IMG/VR virus record: IMGVR_UViG_3300033571_026757
Location: 1-20,711 of that record
Length of the DNA: 20,711 nt
From: a virus
Reading direction: 5' to 3' (one strand)
Shown piece by piece: positions 1,764-20,711 of the stretch (position 1 is its first letter; each line of letters begins with the position of its first letter). The notes beneath the pieces were generated by a model, which was not told where the DNA came from, searched no databases, and was given only the letters and a program-made list of their open reading frames with translations. A program made the translations under genes and the position numbers.

Positions 1764-1805
1764 CTATAATCAGTTAGGTTTTATTTTAATAGTTCCATTT
1801 GGGAC

Positions 1806-1810
1806 GGAGG
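1806..1810 (+). promoter_or_regulatory. Shine-Dalgarno site fixing the sheath start
   Basis: GGAGG lies six nucleotides before the ATG at 1817. A TTG at 1799 would extend the frame by six residues (MGRRNS), but it lies upstream of this site. The ATG gives the N-terminus MPGVVVTT, typical of sheath proteins. The ATG is therefore the preferred start. Confidence 0.7.
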
Positions 1811-1816
1811 AACAGT

Positions 1817-3280
1817 ATGCCAGGTGTAGTCGTTACAACAGCAGTAAGAACAGGGCCAACAGCGGTTCAAGTCATTCCAACAGCTACTGCTTTTGTTGCT
1901 GGTGTTACAAGCCGCGGTCCTTCGGGTTCTGCGACGCTTATCTCTAGCTTTGCTCAGTATGAAGCGTTGTTTGGCGGTTACACATCCTCCGGTTATGTAC
2001 ATCAAACTGTAAAGACCTTTTTCGAAGAAGGCGGAGCACGCATTTACGTGTCTCGCGCAGTTGGAACAGATTCAGAATCAGCAACCTGCGTTCTTTTGAA
2101 CAGTGAATCAACACCAGGTACATCCATCACGCTAACAGCTGCAGGAAAAGGCACATGGGCACACTCCGGTGTTCTTGAGGCAACCGTAACAAACCCAGCA
2201 AGTACAAGCTTTAGAGTTTCGATTTTGCTAAACGGTGCAGAGGTTTACACTTCAGGAATATACACCTCTGCAACAAAGGCTGATTTCATCAACGAAATCA
2301 ACAACAGCCCTGTTGCTGCTCTCTACGTGACCGCAGCATCAACCGGCTCAACAATTCCAGTAGCTGTTGCTGCAAAAGATTTTAGCTCTGGTGACGATGG
2401 CGATACGGTTGTCGCGGCAAACATCGTCGCAGCGATTGGTTACTTCACCTACGACCTTGGCCCCGGCGCACTAATGGCTCCAGGTTTTTACGACTCAACC
2501 ACCGTTGATGCTCTTGTTGCAAACGCAAACACCAACCACAGAGTGGCTTTGTCAAGCGTGGCAGCTGGAAGTAACGCCGCAGACGCAGTGACAGCTGCCT
2601 CTGCATACCTCGGTGATGAAAACTCAGAACACCTTGCGGTCTACTGGCCATGGGTAAAGGTGCCAAATGGTGGTCTCACAATGACAATTCCACCAGAAGG
2701 ATTTGTTGCTGCCCGCAGAGCCGCTACACAGAACTCTCGTGGCGTATGGTTCCCATATGCTGGAGAAGCTGGCGCTGCATCTTATGTGGTTGGCCTCGAG
2801 ACTGTTGTTTCAAAAGAAGACACAGACACTGTTGATGCCGGAAGCGTAAACGCCATTCGCATTGTTCAGGGAAGCCTTCGAATTTACGGAGCTCGCTCGA
2901 TGTCCGCAGACACTGACAACTTCCGCTTCATAACCGGACAAGAAGTTCTTAACTACATCGTCTACTTGGCAGAACGAGACCTCGAAGCTCTCATCTTTGA
3001 ACCAATCGATGGTCGTAGAACATTGTTCGCTCGTGTTGCTTCAACACTTACAGCAATTCTTGACCCAATCGCAAAAGCTGGCGGACTTTTTCCGGCTTTC
3101 GATGTTAACGGAAACCAGATAGACGCTGGATATTCTGTAGTTGTTTCAGACGCACTCAACCCAGTAACACAGCTTGCAGAAGGCAAGATTGTTGCCAAGG
3201 TTGGAGCACGCGTTACTGGAATAGGTGACAAGATTGAAGTCGAAGTCACAAAATCATCACTCACATCTTCACTGGTTTAA
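1817..3280 (+). CDS. Contractile tail sheath protein
   Basis: This 487-aa protein forms the contractile outer tube of the tail. The N-terminus MPGVVVTT, followed by FVAGVTSRGPSG, a SFAQYEALFGGY segment and VHQTVKTFFEEGGARIYVSR, is the standard sheath N-terminal arrangement ('G..p..p..i.S...fe..FGg......a...FF.nGG..~yv.RV'). A central region rich in Ala, Ser and Thr (about residues 85-270) is the variable outward-facing insertion domain. From about residue 355 the conserved C-terminal domain follows, with IYGARSMS, the FRFITGQEVLNYI helix, FEPIDGRRTLFARV and a closing IEVEVTKSS strand. These C-terminal strands mesh neighbouring subunits in known sheaths. The start is set by a GGAGG site. The tube gene follows 12 nt downstream, the usual order. 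Confidence 0.93.
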   Translation: MPGVVVTTAVRTGPTAVQVIPTATAFVAGVTSRGPSGSATLISSFAQYEALFGGYTSSGYVHQTVKTFFEEGGARIYVSRAVGTDSESATCVLLNSESTPGTSITLTAAGKGTWAHSGVLEATVTNPASTSFRVSILLNGAEVYTSGIYTSATKADFINEINNSPVAALYVTAASTGSTIPVAVAAKDFSSGDDGDTVVAANIVAAIGYFTYDLGPGALMAPGFYDSTTVDALVANANTNHRVALSSVAAGSNAADAVTAASAYLGDENSEHLAVYWPWVKVPNGGLTMTIPPEGFVAARRAATQNSRGVWFPYAGEAGAASYVVGLETVVSKEDTDTVDAGSVNAIRIVQGSLRIYGARSMSADTDNFRFITGQEVLNYIVYLAERDLEALIFEPIDGRRTLFARVASTLTAILDPIAKAGGLFPAFDVNGNQIDAGYSVVVSDALNPVTQLAEGKIVAKVGARVTGIGDKIEVEVTKSSLTSSLV

Positions 3281-4520: not shown

Positions 4521-7500
4521 ATGGCAGAAGTTGAAAACGTAGTTGTCAGGGTTGCTGGGCAAGGATTTGAAAAGCTATCGGCAAAGATGGCCGCCCTTGG
4601 CGCACAATCAAAGTCTCTCGACAGCAGAATAAACAAGACCTCAAAAAGTTTTACAAAACTAAATGGGTCGATGTCTGCGTCAACAAACCAGCTAAGAAAA
4701 CAAGCTGCGGCAACGACCAACCTTGCTCAAAAACAACAAATTCTTACCGAGTATATGAATCGCGGTTCAAGAGGTTTTTCGAAGTTTGCTAAAGCTGCAA
4801 GATTTCTTATGTTTGCGGTTATTGGTTTGGGTATTGAGTTTGCTGTCACTGCTGGCTCACTAATGCTAGTTAATGCCGCGTTTGCTGCAGGTAATGCAAT
4901 AATGAAGGCATACAAGTGGTCAATGGGTGGTGTAGCTGCCGCCGCCGCTGCCGTTGGCGCTGCTCTTGCTATAGCAGCAGCAGCTCAAAGAGAATATACA
5001 GCAGCCCAGTTTGCTCATACTCAAAAAGCAACACCAAAATTTGGTTCGGCAATGAACTACAGCGTGTCGATGCTGAGAAACCTAACATCAGATACCGAGC
5101 TTGCGGTGTTTGGCATTGAAAACCTTAATGCCGCGTTTGCTGCGGTAAGCAAGAACAGTCAGTTTACTGGAAAGTCACAGCAAGTAATTAGAGCTTTGAG
5201 AGACTTTGCCGCTATAGGTGGAGACCCGGGGAAGAACCTTGCGGGAATAGGTGAGTTTGTAGGTCTTCTTCAAAAAGAAGGAAAAGTTACCGCCAAGGTA
5301 AGTGCAGCAGCTCAGGCTATTGGCCCAGAGTTTGAAAAAGCCTTTAAGAAAATAAAGAAGAGCGGTGGCGGGGTAAACGAAATATTTAGCTCAATCTTGT
5401 CTGGCGACATGTCTGCTGCTGCTGGAATCACTGGACAGGCAGACCTAGTTGGCAATACCCTTGTAGGAACGTTTAAGAAGTATAAAACGATTCTCGTTGG
5501 CTTGTTTGCCGACATAGGAACACCTTTATTAGCAAGTGCAACAGACACACTGAGACAATCGTTTAACATCATTAAAAATGGCGTTCAAAGAATATCTCCA
5601 GGACTAACACAATTTGGAAAAGGCAGCCTTCTCCCAACAATCCTTAAAGCTGTCGAAAAAATAACAGAATTTACTGTAAAACTTTTTAACGAATACCTGC
5701 CCAAATCAGAAGGAATGCTTGGAGACATAAAAGGCTGGTGGCTTCAGTTTAAAAGCATTTTTGAAAGAACAAAAAATACACTCAACGAGCTAAGAGAGGG
5801 CGGCTCGATAGTTATTGACATGTTTGCAATACCTCTCAAAGAATTATTTAAAGGTATTGGCGAAAACGTCAAAGCTTTCGCTCAACTTGCTGTTGAAAAT
5901 AAGGACGACTTTATAGCCTTTGGCGAAGGCCTTGGTGGCGTGGTCGACAAACTAATGCTTTTTGCCCAAAAGTTTAAAGAGGCGTTTGCGGCCGCCTTGC
6001 CAACTATTAACCAAATACTCACTATTGTTGAAAAAGTAATTGCCGCAGCTGCAAAAATTGTTGAAGTTATTGCGAAAATACCTTTTGGTGGAGAAATGCT
6101 CATGGGCATCGCCGGATATGGTGCGTTCAAAGGGCGAAGAAGTGCTCAAAGAGCTGCGCGGGCAAGCGGAGGGAAGGCTCAGAACAAGTACCAGCACATG
6201 GGTAACGCTGCAATGGCAATGATGGGAATGCCAATGTATGCAGGACAGGGTTTGTATGACTTTGACCCAAACACTGGAGATGCACTCTTGGACCCCAATA
6301 CAGGAAGGCCAATATCTGCCGCTAGAAGAAATACCGACGCATCGCGAGCAAGAATAAAGACAGGAAGAGTTGGCTCAAGATTATTTGCTGGCGGGAAACG
6401 CCAGGGATTACTAAACGTAGCAAGTAGGATTGGTGGACAATTTAACCCATCGGCATCCCGGCAAATAGCAATGGATGAATGGACTTTTCATAACGAAAAC
6501 ATCTATGACCCCGACAAGGTAAATAGAGTTCCGGCAGGTACGCCGGGAGCAAAATATGACCCAGCTCTTGGTTACTACACAACAAAGGGTGGATTAACCG
6601 CAAACCCAAATCAGCTAACCGGTCGTAAAGCAAAAATAGGTCGTGCCAAAGCCGGACTAAAAGGTGGGTTTGGCATGGGTGGAATGGCTGCCGGTATGGC
6701 TATATCGGCTTTTGCTAACTCAGGTATGGCTCCCTCTTTTATGAAAGAAAACTCTGGAGCTATAAACATGGGCGCAGGACTGATGGCTATAAACCCAATG
6801 CTTGGTCTTGCAGCAATGGGTGGAGGAACTCTTTTTAATCTAATGAAGGGAACTGGAGCAAGAACAGCCGGAGGAGGAGCATTGACCGGCGCTGCTGCTG
6901 GCGCGGCAATGGGTGCATTTGCAGGACCTATAGGAATGGCCGTAGGTGGACTTATTGGTGGTGCAATTGGATTTTTTGGTGGTAAAAAAGCCGAAAGAAT
7001 GGTTGCAAAAGAAGCAGCAAAAAGCGCTTCAGCAAAAAATATTGGTAAAGTTGTAAATAAGTTTATTGCGGGAGATACAAGAGGCGCAAAAGGTGTTGTT
7101 GGAGAGATGACCGCAAACGCATCAAAATTCAATGCGATGACAGCTTCCCAGCAAGAGACATACATATCTGGTCTTGAAAAAAGCGGTGTTCTAACAAAAA
7201 CCCAAGCCCAAAGAGCCAGACAGAACAAAGGGACTTTTGGTGGAGAACTAGAAACAATAGCCAAAGACACTGGTGTTGTAACAAAATCTCTTACCAATTC
7301 TTTTGAAAACCTTATGAATGGTCTTCAGGGCTCTACAGGAATGGCGCGAGACGAAATACTCGACCTGGCCAAAAGCATGGGTGTAAACCTTTACGACCCA
7401 ACATTGAAGCTAACTGACGCAATCAGTGGACTAGGCAAACAAATGGACCTTACTGTTGAAGGTCTAGCTGCTTCTGGAACAGATGCAATCCTTAGAGCAA

Positions 7501-8702
7501 ATCGTACTTTTGATGACATGTTTAAAGCAGAAGAAATAACCAACGCAATGAACTCGGCAGGAAGGGGTATTTCACAGGCTGGGGGAGGTTCGCGTAATGA
7601 CTACATCGACTTGATGCAAAAAACTACAGAATATTTAGCAAACCAAAACCCCGACAACCCTCTTGCTCAGCTTTACGCTTTTCAGGGAATGTACGGCGAG
7701 GGCGGAACGGCATTCACTGCAGGCAATCAGCTTTCCAATGTTGGTAGAGAAAATTTTGTTGCAAATGCAGGTCCGCAATATGAGCAGCTAGTTGCAGCGC
7801 AGGCATCAAATCTGGCCACAGACAGGTCGAGAGCTATAACGCAGCTAATGAACGAGGGTGGATTTGAATTCACAGATGGAGCAGCCGGTTTTGCCGGAAT
7901 TAAATCACAACTTGAGGCTCTATATACATCTAAAGACCCAGCAGACCAGGCAAAAGCAAAGAATCTGGAAAATCTCCTAATTAGCGGAACTGGCCTTGGA
8001 GGTAGTGCTGCTGAAATAACACAAACTCTCACAAACCTTGGTTTTGATATATCTGCAGGCGGAAAGCTAAAAGAGAGCACTGCGGGTACTCTGACTGAAC
8101 AGCTTACAAATCAGCAAGCCGCCCTCAAACAGGACATTGTAGCCGCAATTGGCACTGGGTTTGACGTCAAGCCTGACTGGTGGAATGGAACTCCAGCATG
8201 GTGGAACGACCCACCTGGCGACGACACATCATCTCCACGTGCTTCTTCCGTTGGAGACACTGTTTCTTCTCGTCTTGGGCGCACCATGTCAAGGCACAAT
8301 TACTTTGATTCAACAATGACTGGCAAACGTACAGTTACATCAGCATGGAGAAACTATGGACTTGGCTCTCCTAGCTCCGACCACGTAACAGGAAATGCAT
8401 ATGACCTGGTTGGTCAAAACCTTGGCCAATATGCCACTACAATCAACAAAGCTGGCGGATTTGCAGAATTCCACGGAGCAGGCGGTTCAAGACACCTGCA
8501 TGTTGTGCCTCCTTCGTCACCGGTGGGAGACTCTGGAACTTCAAGAATAGGACAAGTCGCGCCACCTGCTAACCAGCAACCAAGTGGCGGAGCTGTAACA
8601 ATAAATGTGTACGCATCAGAAGGTCAGAGCGAGCAAGAAATAGCAAGAGTAGTTATGAATGAAATATCAAAAGCTCAAAGAAACTGGAAGGAGAGAAGAT
8701 AA
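4521..8702 (+). CDS. Tape measure protein with C-terminal M15-type peptidase domain
   Basis: At 1393 aa this is the longest gene, placed after the chaperones, and it sets tail length. The ATG has AGGA 6 nt upstream. Residues 1-90 are helical. Residues about 94-125 and 134-156 are strongly hydrophobic and could insert into the host membrane during DNA entry. A second Gly/Ala/Met-rich hydrophobic region spans about 719-821. Residues about 1218-1232 hold a tandem P-x-WWN motif. At about 1260-1335 lies a metallopeptidase-like segment: SSDHVTGNAYDL (H1288, D1295) is the HxxGxAxD zinc motif of M15 D-Ala-D-Ala carboxypeptidase/endopeptidase enzymes, followed by E1316 and HLHVV (H1325, H1327). The C-terminus (VTINVYASEG and a charged helix) is typical of tape measures. 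The domain probably opens peptidoglycan during infection. By the rule of about 0.15 nm per residue the protein allows a tail up to about 200 nm. Confidence 0.93.
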   Translation: MAEVENVVVRVAGQGFEKLSAKMAALGAQSKSLDSRINKTSKSFTKLNGSMSASTNQLRKQAAATTNLAQKQQILTEYMNRGSRGFSKFAKAARFLMFAVIGLGIEFAVTAGSLMLVNAAFAAGNAIMKAYKWSMGGVAAAAAAVGAALAIAAAAQREYTAAQFAHTQKATPKFGSAMNYSVSMLRNLTSDTELAVFGIENLNAAFAAVSKNSQFTGKSQQVIRALRDFAAIGGDPGKNLAGIGEFVGLLQKEGKVTAKVSAAAQAIGPEFEKAFKKIKKSGGGVNEIFSSILSGDMSAAAGITGQADLVGNTLVGTFKKYKTILVGLFADIGTPLLASATDTLRQSFNIIKNGVQRISPGLTQFGKGSLLPTILKAVEKITEFTVKLFNEYLPKSEGMLGDIKGWWLQFKSIFERTKNTLNELREGGSIVIDMFAIPLKELFKGIGENVKAFAQLAVENKDDFIAFGEGLGGVVDKLMLFAQKFKEAFAAALPTINQILTIVEKVIAAAAKIVEVIAKIPFGGEMLMGIAGYGAFKGRRSAQRAARASGGKAQNKYQHMGNAAMAMMGMPMYAGQGLYDFDPNTGDALLDPNTGRPISAARRNTDASRARIKTGRVGSRLFAGGKRQGLLNVASRIGGQFNPSASRQIAMDEWTFHNENIYDPDKVNRVPAGTPGAKYDPALGYYTTKGGLTANPNQLTGRKAKIGRAKAGLKGGFGMGGMAAGMAISAFANSGMAPSFMKENSGAINMGAGLMAINPMLGLAAMGGGTLFNLMKGTGARTAGGGALTGAAAGAAMGAFAGPIGMAVGGLIGGAIGFFGGKKAERMVAKEAAKSASAKNIGKVVNKFIAGDTRGAKGVVGEMTANASKFNAMTASQQETYISGLEKSGVLTKTQAQRARQNKGTFGGELETIAKDTGVVTKSLTNSFENLMNGLQGSTGMARDEILDLAKSMGVNLYDPTLKLTDAISGLGKQMDLTVEGLAASGTDAILRANRTFDDMFKAEEITNAMNSAGRGISQAGGGSRNDYIDLMQKTTEYLANQNPDNPLAQLYAFQGMYGEGGTAFTAGNQLSNVGRENFVANAGPQYEQLVAAQASNLATDRSRAITQLMNEGGFEFTDGAAGFAGIKSQLEALYTSKDPADQAKAKNLENLLISGTGLGGSAAEITQTLTNLGFDISAGGKLKESTAGTLTEQLTNQQAALKQDIVAAIGTGFDVKPDWWNGTPAWWNDPPGDDTSSPRASSVGDTVSSRLGRTMSRHNYFDSTMTGKRTVTSAWRNYGLGSPSSDHVTGNAYDLVGQNLGQYATTINKAGGFAEFHGAGGSRHLHVVPPSSPVGDSGTSRIGQVAPPANQQPSGGAVTINVYASEGQSEQEIARVVMNEISKAQRNWKERR

Positions 8703-11719: not shown

Positions 11720-13324
11720 ATGGCATCACCAGATTTTTCAGAATACGTAGACCTAACAGTCAATGACCTTCAACCGCCAGAGCTGTATGCCGCTGCGGTT
11801 GACTATGCAAGAACAGCTCTTCCAGAGTTTGAGCCTCGAGCGGGCTCAGTAGAGGACGCATTACTGCAGGCCTTTGCCCTAATGAACTCTCTCTATATAG
11901 CCGCAGCAAACAGAATTCCTAACGGAACGATAGAAGGTGTTTTGAGACTTTTGGGTCTTGAAAGAAGAGAAGCAGGCGTATCGACAGTTAATGCAAACTT
12001 TATTGTTCTGACTTCTGGAGGAACTGTCGAACAGGGAACATCAGTAGCGTACTTAACAGAAGAAGACGGGAACACGGTTCAATATCCATTCTTTGTTCGC
12101 GAAACAGTAATAGGCTCTCCAGGCTCATTCTCTGTTCCAGTAGTGCTTGAATCTACGGTTTTGGGGCCACTTCCTGCAATCCCTGCGGGAACTCGGTTTA
12201 TAATAACCCAGCCATCCTCTGAGCTTATTTCATGCACTACATCATCTTCCCCAACGTCTGTAACCGCATCTGAAACGGATGAAGAATTTATACGACGTGG
12301 TGTAACTTACCTTGACTCCCTGTCTAACTCGCTATGCACTGCAACACAAATCGAGTCCTACATACTCACCGCGTACCCATCTGTTACCAGATGCAAGGTT
12401 TACGACCTTGCTTATGGTTCCTCAACATCTCCAGTATCAACGACAACAACACAAGCAACAGTTAGTGGAAGCAATATAGATGTTGTAATTGACTGCTCGG
12501 ATGAAGAAGGTCAAATGTTTGCTTTCAACGATGGTCTCGGTCTTGATTTGGACGGAAGTTCTCTCTGGCTAACCACTCAAGAAATGCTGGGTAACGCAGA
12601 AGTGACAAAAGAGCTTTGCCCCTCGGGATTAGTCTCAACAGCCGGAGGGCAGACAATATCCATAGACTTATCTACGCAAGAAATAACAATTGAAGACATA
12701 CCTGCAGTAACTGAAACTACCGCAGCTTTTGGACAATCAATGGTTCAGCTTGTTAGCGGACTTCAGTTTTCAACGCTTGCAACTGCTCCGGCCCTCAGAA
12801 CTCCAGACGCAAGAGGAATGTATGTAATTTTTATATGGGGCACGGATGGTTTACCAGTTTCATTTGACGAAAAAAATGCAATATACGAAGATATTTCCAC
12901 AAGAACGCCAGTAGGTATAGATGCTTTTATTCACACTGCAATGCCTGTAGATATATATTTAACTCTTGAAATTGAAGTGTTGAACGGTTTTGTCGGCTCA
13001 AGCGTGGCAGCAGAAGTACAGGATTATTTGGATGCATATTTTAGCCCTGAGTTTTATGAATCATGGACAGAATATATATATAGGAATGAATTTATAGTAA
13101 AGGCTTCTGAGGTCTCCGGAGTAAAAAGAGTTGTTTCTTCTGTTATGTATCTTCCAACATATGGAACTGGAGAAATAGGGACAACGACCGGAAGCTCTTA
13201 TGTAAACAATCAGCGTATGGCTACTCTTGATACCGGTACACCATTAAATCCTCAATTCATAAGGTTTACATACGCCGGAACAATGCCTAAGGTAAAATCG
13301 GTGGTCACTCTTTATGGTTCCTGA
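11720..13324 (+). CDS. Baseplate wedge protein, gpJ/gp6-like
   Basis: The 534-aa protein belongs to the baseplate J/T4 gp6 family. AGGA lies close before the ATG. The N-terminal region reads ALPEFEPRAGSVEDALLQAF and then an ALMNSLYIAAANRIP helix, as in J proteins ('p.w.....~S.~~~ll...A........n'). GVLRLLGLERREAGVST follows, then a beta-rich central region with the motif GTSVAYLTEE. The C-terminal third has VDIYLTLEIEVLNGF, AEVQDYLDAYFSPEFYE, then FIVKASEVSGVKRVVSSV, the 'v.v...v....~~~~v...i.~y~' and 'gV..v' elements of the family. It builds the sixfold baseplate ring with gp25- and gpI-like partners. Its 3' end overlaps the next gene by 11 nt. Confidence 0.85.
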   Translation: MASPDFSEYVDLTVNDLQPPELYAAAVDYARTALPEFEPRAGSVEDALLQAFALMNSLYIAAANRIPNGTIEGVLRLLGLERREAGVSTVNANFIVLTSGGTVEQGTSVAYLTEEDGNTVQYPFFVRETVIGSPGSFSVPVVLESTVLGPLPAIPAGTRFIITQPSSELISCTTSSSPTSVTASETDEEFIRRGVTYLDSLSNSLCTATQIESYILTAYPSVTRCKVYDLAYGSSTSPVSTTTTQATVSGSNIDVVIDCSDEEGQMFAFNDGLGLDLDGSSLWLTTQEMLGNAEVTKELCPSGLVSTAGGQTISIDLSTQEITIEDIPAVTETTAAFGQSMVQLVSGLQFSTLATAPALRTPDARGMYVIFIWGTDGLPVSFDEKNAIYEDISTRTPVGIDAFIHTAMPVDIYLTLEIEVLNGFVGSSVAAEVQDYLDAYFSPEFYESWTEYIYRNEFIVKASEVSGVKRVVSSVMYLPTYGTGEIGTTTGSSYVNNQRMATLDTGTPLNPQFIRFTYAGTMPKVKSVVTLYGS

Positions 13325-18229: not shown

Positions 18230-19522
18230 ATGGCAACTAAATTTCTAACAAATCTTGACCTAAATCAAAATCAGATTTTAAGTGGTCGCTTTGAGGTTTT
18301 AGGCACAGACCCAACCGGTTTCGCCGGCAGAATGTACTACAACAGCGACAATGGTGTTGTTCGTCTGTTTAATGGCACGGCTTGGGTAAATGCGATTAGT
18401 TCCATTACTTCAGCTGGGACTCATACCGACGCAATTACGATTACTCCGTCCACAAACGGAACTGTTACCATCACCCTGAACCTTGCAGATACAGACTCTG
18501 CCGGTTTGCTTTCCGCCACTTTTTGGAACGACCTTACCGACGCAACAGCTAATGCCACAGCTTCAAAACTGGTCAAAAGAGACGCAAATGGAAACATTAA
18601 GGTTGCCACCCCTACGGATGCCGACCATGCTGCAACAAAGGGCTATGTAGACGCTGCTCGTTCTGGGCTTGATGTTAAGCAGTCTGTTCGTGCAGCAACC
18701 ACTGTCGCTGTAAACCTCACGTCTGAGCTTGAGGCTGGCGACACAATTGACACTAGCGTTACGCTGGTTGCTGGCGACCGAGTACTTGTAAAGAATCAGG
18801 GGACCGCTTCAGAGAACGGTATCTATGTTGTTCAGGCTTCTGGCGCAGCAGTTCGTGCGACAGACTTTGACGGTACTGGCGAAGTTTCCGGTGGAGCATT
18901 TACATTCGTTGAAGAAGGAAATGTAAACGCCGACTCTGGCTGGGTTGTATCAAGCAACGGAGCTATTGCTGTTGGCACCGACGCTATTAACTGGGTTCAG
19001 TTCTCCGGTGCTGGTCAAATCACTGCTGGTGACGGTCTTACAAAAGACGGAAACACAATCAATGTTGTCGGAACAGCTGACCGAATTACCGCTAATGCAA
19101 ACAGCGTGGACATTGCCTCTACGTATGCTGGTCAATCAAGCATTACAACCCTTGGAACAATCACCACTGGTACGTGGAATGGCACAGACATTGCTGTTGC
19201 AGACGGTGGTACTGGCTCCTCAACCGAATCTGGGGCTAGAACAAACCTCGCTTCAGCGACATCCGAGGCAACTGGAAGAACAACAAGCACCCCATCTTTG
19301 TCTCGAGTGGCCAAGCAGGGTTGTGCAGCGTCTTCTGCTGGTGTATCGACAACAACGGTAACTCACAACTTCGGAACATCTGACGTAATGGTTCAAATAT
19401 ACGAAGTAATAAGCGGCGCTACTGTTTTTGGAGATGTGTCTCGTTCAAACGGAAACACAATTTCAGTAGTTCTCAATGGAACAATTTCAGCAAACGACTA
19501 CATAATTGTAGTCACTGGATAG
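18230..19522 (+). CDS. Tail fibre protein (430 aa)
   Basis: GAGG precedes the ATG. The N-terminus (FLTNLDLNQNQILSGRFEV and FAGRMYYNSDNGVVRLFNG) resembles baseplate-attached fibre starts. A middle region carries TDADHAATKGYVDAA, the well-known phage fibre 'AatKgYVD' motif, then VRAATTVAVNLTSE and DRVLVKNQGTASENGIYVV, a repeat-rich shaft with trimeric fibre character. TWNGTDIAVADGGTGS is a 'gGTGa' fibre motif. The last about 60 residues (TTTVTHNFGTSDVMVQIYE, then ISVVLNGTISANDYIIVV) form a tip domain related to the end of the 103-aa protein. No enzymatic motif is seen. It is most likely a host-binding fibre trimer. The holin-like gene follows 7 nt downstream. Confidence 0.8.
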   Translation: MATKFLTNLDLNQNQILSGRFEVLGTDPTGFAGRMYYNSDNGVVRLFNGTAWVNAISSITSAGTHTDAITITPSTNGTVTITLNLADTDSAGLLSATFWNDLTDATANATASKLVKRDANGNIKVATPTDADHAATKGYVDAARSGLDVKQSVRAATTVAVNLTSELEAGDTIDTSVTLVAGDRVLVKNQGTASENGIYVVQASGAAVRATDFDGTGEVSGGAFTFVEEGNVNADSGWVVSSNGAIAVGTDAINWVQFSGAGQITAGDGLTKDGNTINVVGTADRITANANSVDIASTYAGQSSITTLGTITTGTWNGTDIAVADGGTGSSTESGARTNLASATSEATGRTTSTPSLSRVAKQGCAASSAGVSTTTVTHNFGTSDVMVQIYEVISGATVFGDVSRSNGNTISVVLNGTISANDYIIVVTG

Positions 19523-19761: not shown

Positions 19762-20711
19762 ATGGCTCAAAAATTTATAACTCCAATTACAATCAGACAG
19801 CTGTCTTCTGCTGGCTCCGATGGGTTAACGATTTTTGTAGACGGCGAAACTTACGCAAGACTTCAGGTTCAAGCCGGTGGTCGTCTTGTATGGGGCGATG
19901 GAACCGCAGTTGGCGATGTAAACCTCTACCGTGACGAAGCAAATGTTCTCAAGACTGACGACACGTTAAAAGTCCCTGCTATCTATATTGACGGAATTGA
20001 AGTTGATACCTCGGGTGCAGCTTCTGGTCAGGTGCTCCGTTTTGACGGCGCAAAGTTTGTTCCATACACAGTAACTGATGGAGCCACTGGTGCAACCGGA
20101 CCACAAGGCGTAGCTGGCGCGACTGGCCCTGCTGGTGCAACAGGTGCGACCGGCCCTGCTGGCGCAACGGGTGCGACCGGCCCAAGTGCAAACATTTCAG
20201 CAACAGACACTGTCGTTACTGGGAAGTTGTCTAGCGACCAAACAATTGCAAGCAACACCAACGATGTACTTATCTCATTTGTAGATGACATTGACCCTAA
20301 CAATTGGTGGAATGCAACCTCTAAACAGTTCACGCCAACAATTGCTGGCTACTACAACATCGCCTTGCAAGTATGGTGGACTGCTGCTAGCGGTACAGCA
20401 AATCAATACAATGTTCAGATTCGCAAGAACAGCAGCACATCTGCTATCTTCCAAAATCAAACAGTAACAGGTTCTGGTTCTTCTCAGGGTGGAAGCAGAA
20501 TTATCTACCTCAATGGTTCCACGGACTATGTAGATTTCACTGCATACAACGGTGACTCTGTATCAAGAAGTCTTCAATGGGGTGGCGCTGGTCAAGGAAC
20601 ATGGTTCTCTGCCGCTTTAATGACTACTGGAGTAGGCGCAACTGGTGCAAGCGGTGCTGATTCAACAGTGCAGGGTCCGACTGGAGCAACTGGACCCGCT
20701 GGTGCAACAGG
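19762..20711 (+). CDS. Collagen-like fibre with C1q-like domain (3' partial)
   Basis: The frame runs from ATG 19762 to the window end without a stop (316 full codons). The N-terminal about 105 residues (FITPITIRQLSSAGSDG, VPAIYIDGIEVD) form an attachment domain common in phage fibres. Residues 107-141 are a collagen-like Gly-X-Y-type run (GATGATGPQGVAGATGP and two copies of AGATGATGP). About residues 145-288 resemble a C1q/TNF-like jelly roll: QFTPTIAGYYNIALQVWW, VQIRKNSS, SRIIYLNGSTDYVDF and TWFSAALM match the family's aromatic strands. A second collagen-like run starts at about residue 290 and continues out of the window. The fibre is likely a trimer that binds the host surface. GAGG lies only 2-3 nt before the ATG. 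Confidence 0.8.
   Translation, partial: MAQKFITPITIRQLSSAGSDGLTIFVDGETYARLQVQAGGRLVWGDGTAVGDVNLYRDEANVLKTDDTLKVPAIYIDGIEVDTSGAASGQVLRFDGAKFVPYTVTDGATGATGPQGVAGATGPAGATGATGPAGATGATGPSANISATDTVVTGKLSSDQTIASNTNDVLISFVDDIDPNNWWNATSKQFTPTIAGYYNIALQVWWTAASGTANQYNVQIRKNSSTSAIFQNQTVTGSGSSQGGSRIIYLNGSTDYVDFTAYNGDSVSRSLQWGGAGQGTWFSAALMTTGVGATGASGADSTVQGPTGATGPAGAT
20131..20184 (+). repeat. 27-nt tandem repeat in the collagen-like segment
   Basis: Two adjacent 27-nt units (20131-20157 and 20158-20184) differ at few positions and each encodes AGATGATGP. This is probably recent repeat duplication or slippage in a collagen-type shaft, a site that can change fibre length. Confidence 0.8.

Follow-up and report, generated by a model that had tools for sequence, protein, structure and literature searches.

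The tape measure protein (TMP) encoded in the window, the 20,711-nucleotide stretch of viral DNA analysed here, carries in its last tenth, near the C-terminus, a domain of ~100 residues that is, as judged from sequence profiles, distantly homologous to the M15_3 peptidases. The domain is probably an M15-type zinc peptidase that is delivered with the TMP at entry and cuts the cell wall locally. It belongs to a large, strictly conserved branch that is absent from the sequenced phage genomes that we searched. Since wall hydrolases borne by tape measures are already established, the surprise is limited; this M15-type branch is the new part.

A tape measure protein with a peptidase-like domain

The TMP gene (4521..8702, on the + strand like the sheath and baseplate J-like genes) is an ORF coding for 1393 residues. 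Its product matches the PHROG tape measure family phrog_1272 weakly (E 4.7e-05). Directly upstream are the genes for the tail sheath (1799..3280; phrog_23, E 2.4e-40), the tube (phrog_5102) and the tail assembly chaperone (phrog_5088), and baseplate genes follow downstream, including that of a baseplate J-like protein (11720..13324; PF04865, E 1.7e-08). Based on this gene order and the weak PHROG match, the ORF codes for a tape measure, and the phage has a contractile tail. Its N-terminal region is common to all 141 related long proteins that we collected. Hydropathy analyses revealed hydrophobic segments at residues 92-118 and 133-156 (4794..4988), and a hydrophobic segment is found within the first 300 residues of 86 out of 89 distinct related TMPs. 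Further along the window, positions 18230-19522 code for a probable head-decoration or fibre-like protein, and a fibre gene with collagen-type repeats (19762-20709) continues past the window end.

The domain spans residues 1235 to 1337 approximately (8223..8531), as delineated by conservation in 49 and 78 homologues, hhalign comparisons and slow evolution. It is followed by a C-terminal tail predicted to be helical (residues about 1359-1393; 8595..8699). The preliminary description had proposed an M15-type domain at 8280-8530; this covers the active-site half, but by conservation the domain begins earlier, at around residue 1235. The five residues that it singled out, H1288, D1295, E1316, H1325 and H1327, are indeed found at these positions of the 1393-residue ORF, with HVTGNAYD coded from position 8382 and HLH from position 8493.

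Four motifs stand out in the domain. S1274-A-W-R1277 (8340..8351) corresponds to the S-x-x-R motif that is invariant in M15_3 peptidases and whose Arg is a putative substrate-binding residue; it aligns with VTSGYR/ITSGHR, and both its Ser and its Arg are invariant. The putative zinc ligands of H1288-VTGNAY-D1295 (8382..8405) align with the SxHxxGxAxD motif of M15_3 and are present in all 87 distinct copies of the domain. E1316-F-H1318 (8466..8474), which is invariant in the 78-sequence family alignment, provides candidate catalytic or structural residues. Lastly, H1325-L-H1327 (8493..8501) includes a putative third zinc ligand, H1327, which the extended alignment places on the one invariant C-terminal His of the M15_3 peptidases; an HxH motif occurs in 87 of 87 copies. 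The TMP contains only eight His residues, five of which (1259, 1288, 1318, 1325 and 1327) are in the domain region. When the TMP sequence was shuffled, HxxGxAxD alone appeared in 0.5% of the shuffles, and its combination with an HxH motif 15-60 residues later in none of 200,000. The hydrolase-like domain and the tape measure form a single polypeptide in the window, and likewise in all complete relatives. In the latter, which are about 1350-1820 residues long, the first His is located about 100-109 residues from the C-terminus.

Relationship to M15 peptidases

Single-sequence searches of Pfam, NCBIfam and PDB sequences gave nothing above cut-off. In Pfam, the domain of the window scores 12.9 bits (E 0.13) against PF08291 (Peptidase_M15_3), the curated cut-off of which is 23.2 bits. 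Weak matches to PF08291 were found for 36 of 49 homologues, with a best E of 9.5e-4, and none clearly reaches the Pfam cut-off. For a profile-profile comparison, we collected and aligned 13 PF08291-type phage and microvirus peptidases as an M15_3 set. Using hhalign, the 49-member family alignment matched this set with 95.7% probability and a score of 56.6, and column-shuffled controls (n=60) scored at most 21.9. The probability was again 95.7% with 78 members. In the confident part of the alignment, which extends only from the S-x-x-R motif to D1295, residues S1274, R1277, S1286, H1288, G1291, A1293 and D1295 fall on invariant residues of M15_3. Beyond D1295 the alignment is extended with low confidence, and there H1327 coincides with the last His, also invariant in M15_3.

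The M15 type assigned in the preliminary description is thus borne out by the profile-profile match, the conservation and the selection, although the single-sequence HMM search remains below the Pfam cut-off. Because of this score, we do not assign the domain to PF08291 but place it next to that family, as an M15-type family of its own. Of the residues earlier taken as the zinc and catalytic positions, the HxxGxAxD motif and the final His are diagnostic features of M15 enzymes. For E1316, the PF08291 phage set has no Glu at the matching place, which leaves this residue as a candidate for a catalytic role, even though by eye it matches a Glu of 1LBU.

Phage endolysins of the PF08291 type, exemplified by the Escherichia phage K1-5 enzyme, have the same succession of S-x-x-R, SxHxxGxAxD and a last zinc-ligand His as the domain. 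In contrast with them, the domain of the window has a shorter loop between Arg and His, an additional His (HLH) and a GGFAEFHG block, it is fused into a tape measure, and it scores below the Pfam cut-off. The M15_3 profile also finds 1LBU, the muramoyl-pentapeptide carboxypeptidase of Streptomyces albus G (E 4.7e-14). Its GFTEILG...DHTH stretch resembles GFAEFHG...RHLH of the window by eye, and both proteins have HxH and SxHxxGxAxD motifs. In a direct profile comparison, however, the score of 22.8 is low and only slightly exceeds that of shuffles (up to 19.1), the final His is out of register, and 1LBU is a secreted bacterial enzyme, unlike a domain in a tail protein.

Two AlphaFold2 models of the domain are of middling confidence (pLDDT 67 and 75, pTM 0.48 and 0.69). 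They show the order helix-strand-strand-helix-strand-strand. Foldseek searches of the PDB with these models gave no match below E 0.001. Hedgehog N-terminal signalling domains, eukaryotic fold relatives of M15 within the Hedgehog/DD-peptidase superfamily, occupy most of the top ranks with the first model and appear again with the second, at E values above 0.1. A weak sequence link to them also comes from the M15_3 profile. However, their Z score in VIA-align is about 4, and unrelated domains reach 5.7-6.1. Since XcpY/PulL-type domains rank above the Hedgehogs in VIA, the fold alone does not decide. Solved M15 structures are not among the structure-comparison matches listed. The sole significant matches in the viral library are two proteins of this kind from uncultured phages (46-51% identity), one of them named tape measure protein.

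Conservation and distribution of the family

In two scans, 349 and 374 stretches of viral contigs were found to code for relatives of the domain. HxxGxAxD, SDH and GGFxEFH are present in all 87 distinct copies, and RHLHVVP in 85, the other two having RHLHAVP. Across 78-87 divergent copies, the S-x-x-R motif and the three putative zinc positions are invariant. The rest of the TMP is far more variable. Compared with two relatives, L013 and L021, the TMP regions are 28-37% and 27-37% identical, respectively, and the domain 82% and 73%; overall, TMP bodies are 27-38% identical where the domain is 73-82% identical. In every pair compared, dN is lower for the domain than for the TMP body (residues 100-530 and 531-1215). 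The domain is the slowest-evolving of the large TMP regions and is under strong purifying selection; in the comparison with L001, the closest relative, the short C-terminal tail alone has a lower dN (0.016, against 0.022 for the domain). The related loci were mostly found through the peptidase domain itself and are therefore a biased sample for its presence in TMPs. A close N-terminal TMP query, used to search for related tape measures devoid of the domain, returned only already known relatives.

Searches by tblastn of 50,697 deposited phage records with the domain of the window or the family consensus yielded no match. One distant family member gave weak matches only, some of them to annotated microvirus peptidases. 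The preliminary description had mentioned related domains in actinobacterial phage tape measures. This does not hold for the family in the phage records searched, and the domains described in the literature covered are of other types. Our literature search found no report of an M15 tape measure, which is weak evidence as many subscription papers are outside its coverage.

Wall-degrading domains are known in the tape measures of phages TM4, T5 and phiIPLA35 (PMC1796659, PMC6116005), and the hydrolase motif of the TM4 TMP (motif 3) aids the infection of stationary-phase cells (PMC1796659). Mycobacteriophage TM4 thus resembles the phage of the window in having a wall hydrolase domain within an actinophage tape measure. 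However, its motif is related to other metalloendopeptidases and is not described as M15, and its tail is non-contractile. Gordonia phages GMA6 and DalanDe are contractile-tailed actinophages whose genes are similarly ordered and whose baseplate J proteins match distantly. Their tape measures are devoid of the domain, yet they end in a similar-looking C-terminal tail, and GMA6 harbours NlpC/P60 in a separate, neighbouring tail gene.

Host and role in infection

The window is 100% identical over its full length to bases 398-21108 of IMGVR_UViG_3300032295_003787, a viral contig of 64,386 bases that gives access to more sequence of this phage. This parent contig harbours a whiB gene (PF02467; 47175-47366). 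Of 67 related records, 24 have a whiB gene, and every one of the 14 related records exceeding 100 kb has it. They are restricted to Actinobacteria and serve to recognise freshwater actinophages (PMC6802176, PMC10202952). Based on whiB in the parent contig and in the 14 longest related records, the host is almost certainly an actinobacterium, in agreement with the earlier hint at the host from the wall enzyme. The nearest deposited matches of the baseplate J protein are from Arthrobacter and Gordonia phages, and the window has a G+C content of 45%, near that of phages of 'Ca. Nanopelagicales' (44.7-44.8%). Among cellular genomes, the domain was found only on two short contigs (L088 and L089), from MAGs labelled Bacteroidetes and proteobacterium. 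These contigs are probably mis-binned phage, and we therefore took the host from whiB rather than from the MAG labels. The names of these two MAGs (LaPlata, ErkenSummer), rather than sample data of the window, suggest a freshwater habitat.

Pfam analyses identified no other peptidoglycan-hydrolase family among the 66 ORFs of the parent contig, in which the long fibre gene was partly scanned, or among the 51 ORFs of a 77-kb relative. Both contigs might be fragments, and a further hydrolase may be encoded elsewhere in the genomes or have escaped recognition. None of 29 related records has NlpC/P60, unlike phage GMA6, the tape measure of which is devoid of the domain. Beyond the spike, noted earlier to have no lysozyme, neither the tail genes nor the 64-kb contig revealed any further wall hydrolase that could be recognised. 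This pattern of hydrolases fits, without proving it, a wall-cutting role placed in the tape measure.

In the mechanism that we propose, the domain would sit with the TMP inside the tail tube of the virion, near the C-terminus that is thought to be at the tail tip. Upon sheath contraction, the TMP would exit before the DNA. The domain would then meet the actinobacterial cell wall and cleave peptide bonds of the peptidoglycan locally, and the resulting gap would let the tube and the DNA through. The hydrophobic segments of the TMP may then enter the membrane. We infer zinc binding, catalysis, the bond cut (by a D-Ala or L-Ala-D-Glu endopeptidase activity), the timing and the delivery.

An enzymatic role has to be weighed against a degenerate M15 fold that would serve only for peptidoglycan binding or tail-tip cohesion, its conserved residues being structural. 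The peptidase activity is a prediction, E1316 has no match in the M15_3 phage set, and much of the domain beyond the active site is invariant too, which would suit a module for packing or binding. However, in degenerate enzymes some of the ligands are usually lost, and here the three zinc positions and the S-x-x-R motif are kept in each of the 78-87 divergent copies, which makes loss of activity unlikely in our opinion. The enzyme might also act on a substrate other than the wall, as a protease of phage tail proteins involved in TMP or tail maturation. Some tape measures are processed during assembly, and the domain is part of the would-be substrate protein. Nevertheless, the M15 enzymes that have been characterised have the stem peptides of peptidoglycan as substrates, and the phage members that we collected are annotated as endolysins or peptidases. 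We give very little credence to such a tail protease.

If the domain does cleave peptidoglycan, it might do so mainly for lysis, as the endolysin of the phage, freed late in infection from unassembled or processed TMP. Consistent with that role, an endolysin family was recognised on neither the 64-kb nor the 77-kb contig. However, the contigs may be incomplete, endolysins can diverge past recognition, and the domain is fixed within the TMP with more TMP sequence after it. Altogether, a lytic function appears rather improbable. A broader proposal, that the domain is the sole peptidoglycan-cleaving enzyme of the group, tuned to uncultivated freshwater actinobacteria and serving for entry and perhaps for lysis in contractile-tailed phages without a spike or hub hydrolase, is speculative, and we consider it quite unlikely as a whole.

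With local cleavage at entry as the preferred reading, a large uncultivated group of contractile-tailed actinobacterial phages apparently breaches the wall by means of the tape measure and not with the spike or hub. In metagenomes, the domain is a good marker for these phages; it is also a compact candidate for an enzyme acting on actinobacterial walls. As for the rest of the parent contig, it codes for a tryptophan halogenase, a PAPS reductase, a macro domain protein and a 2OG-Fe(II) oxygenase, as well as a glycosyltransferase and a proteasome/HslV-like subunit.
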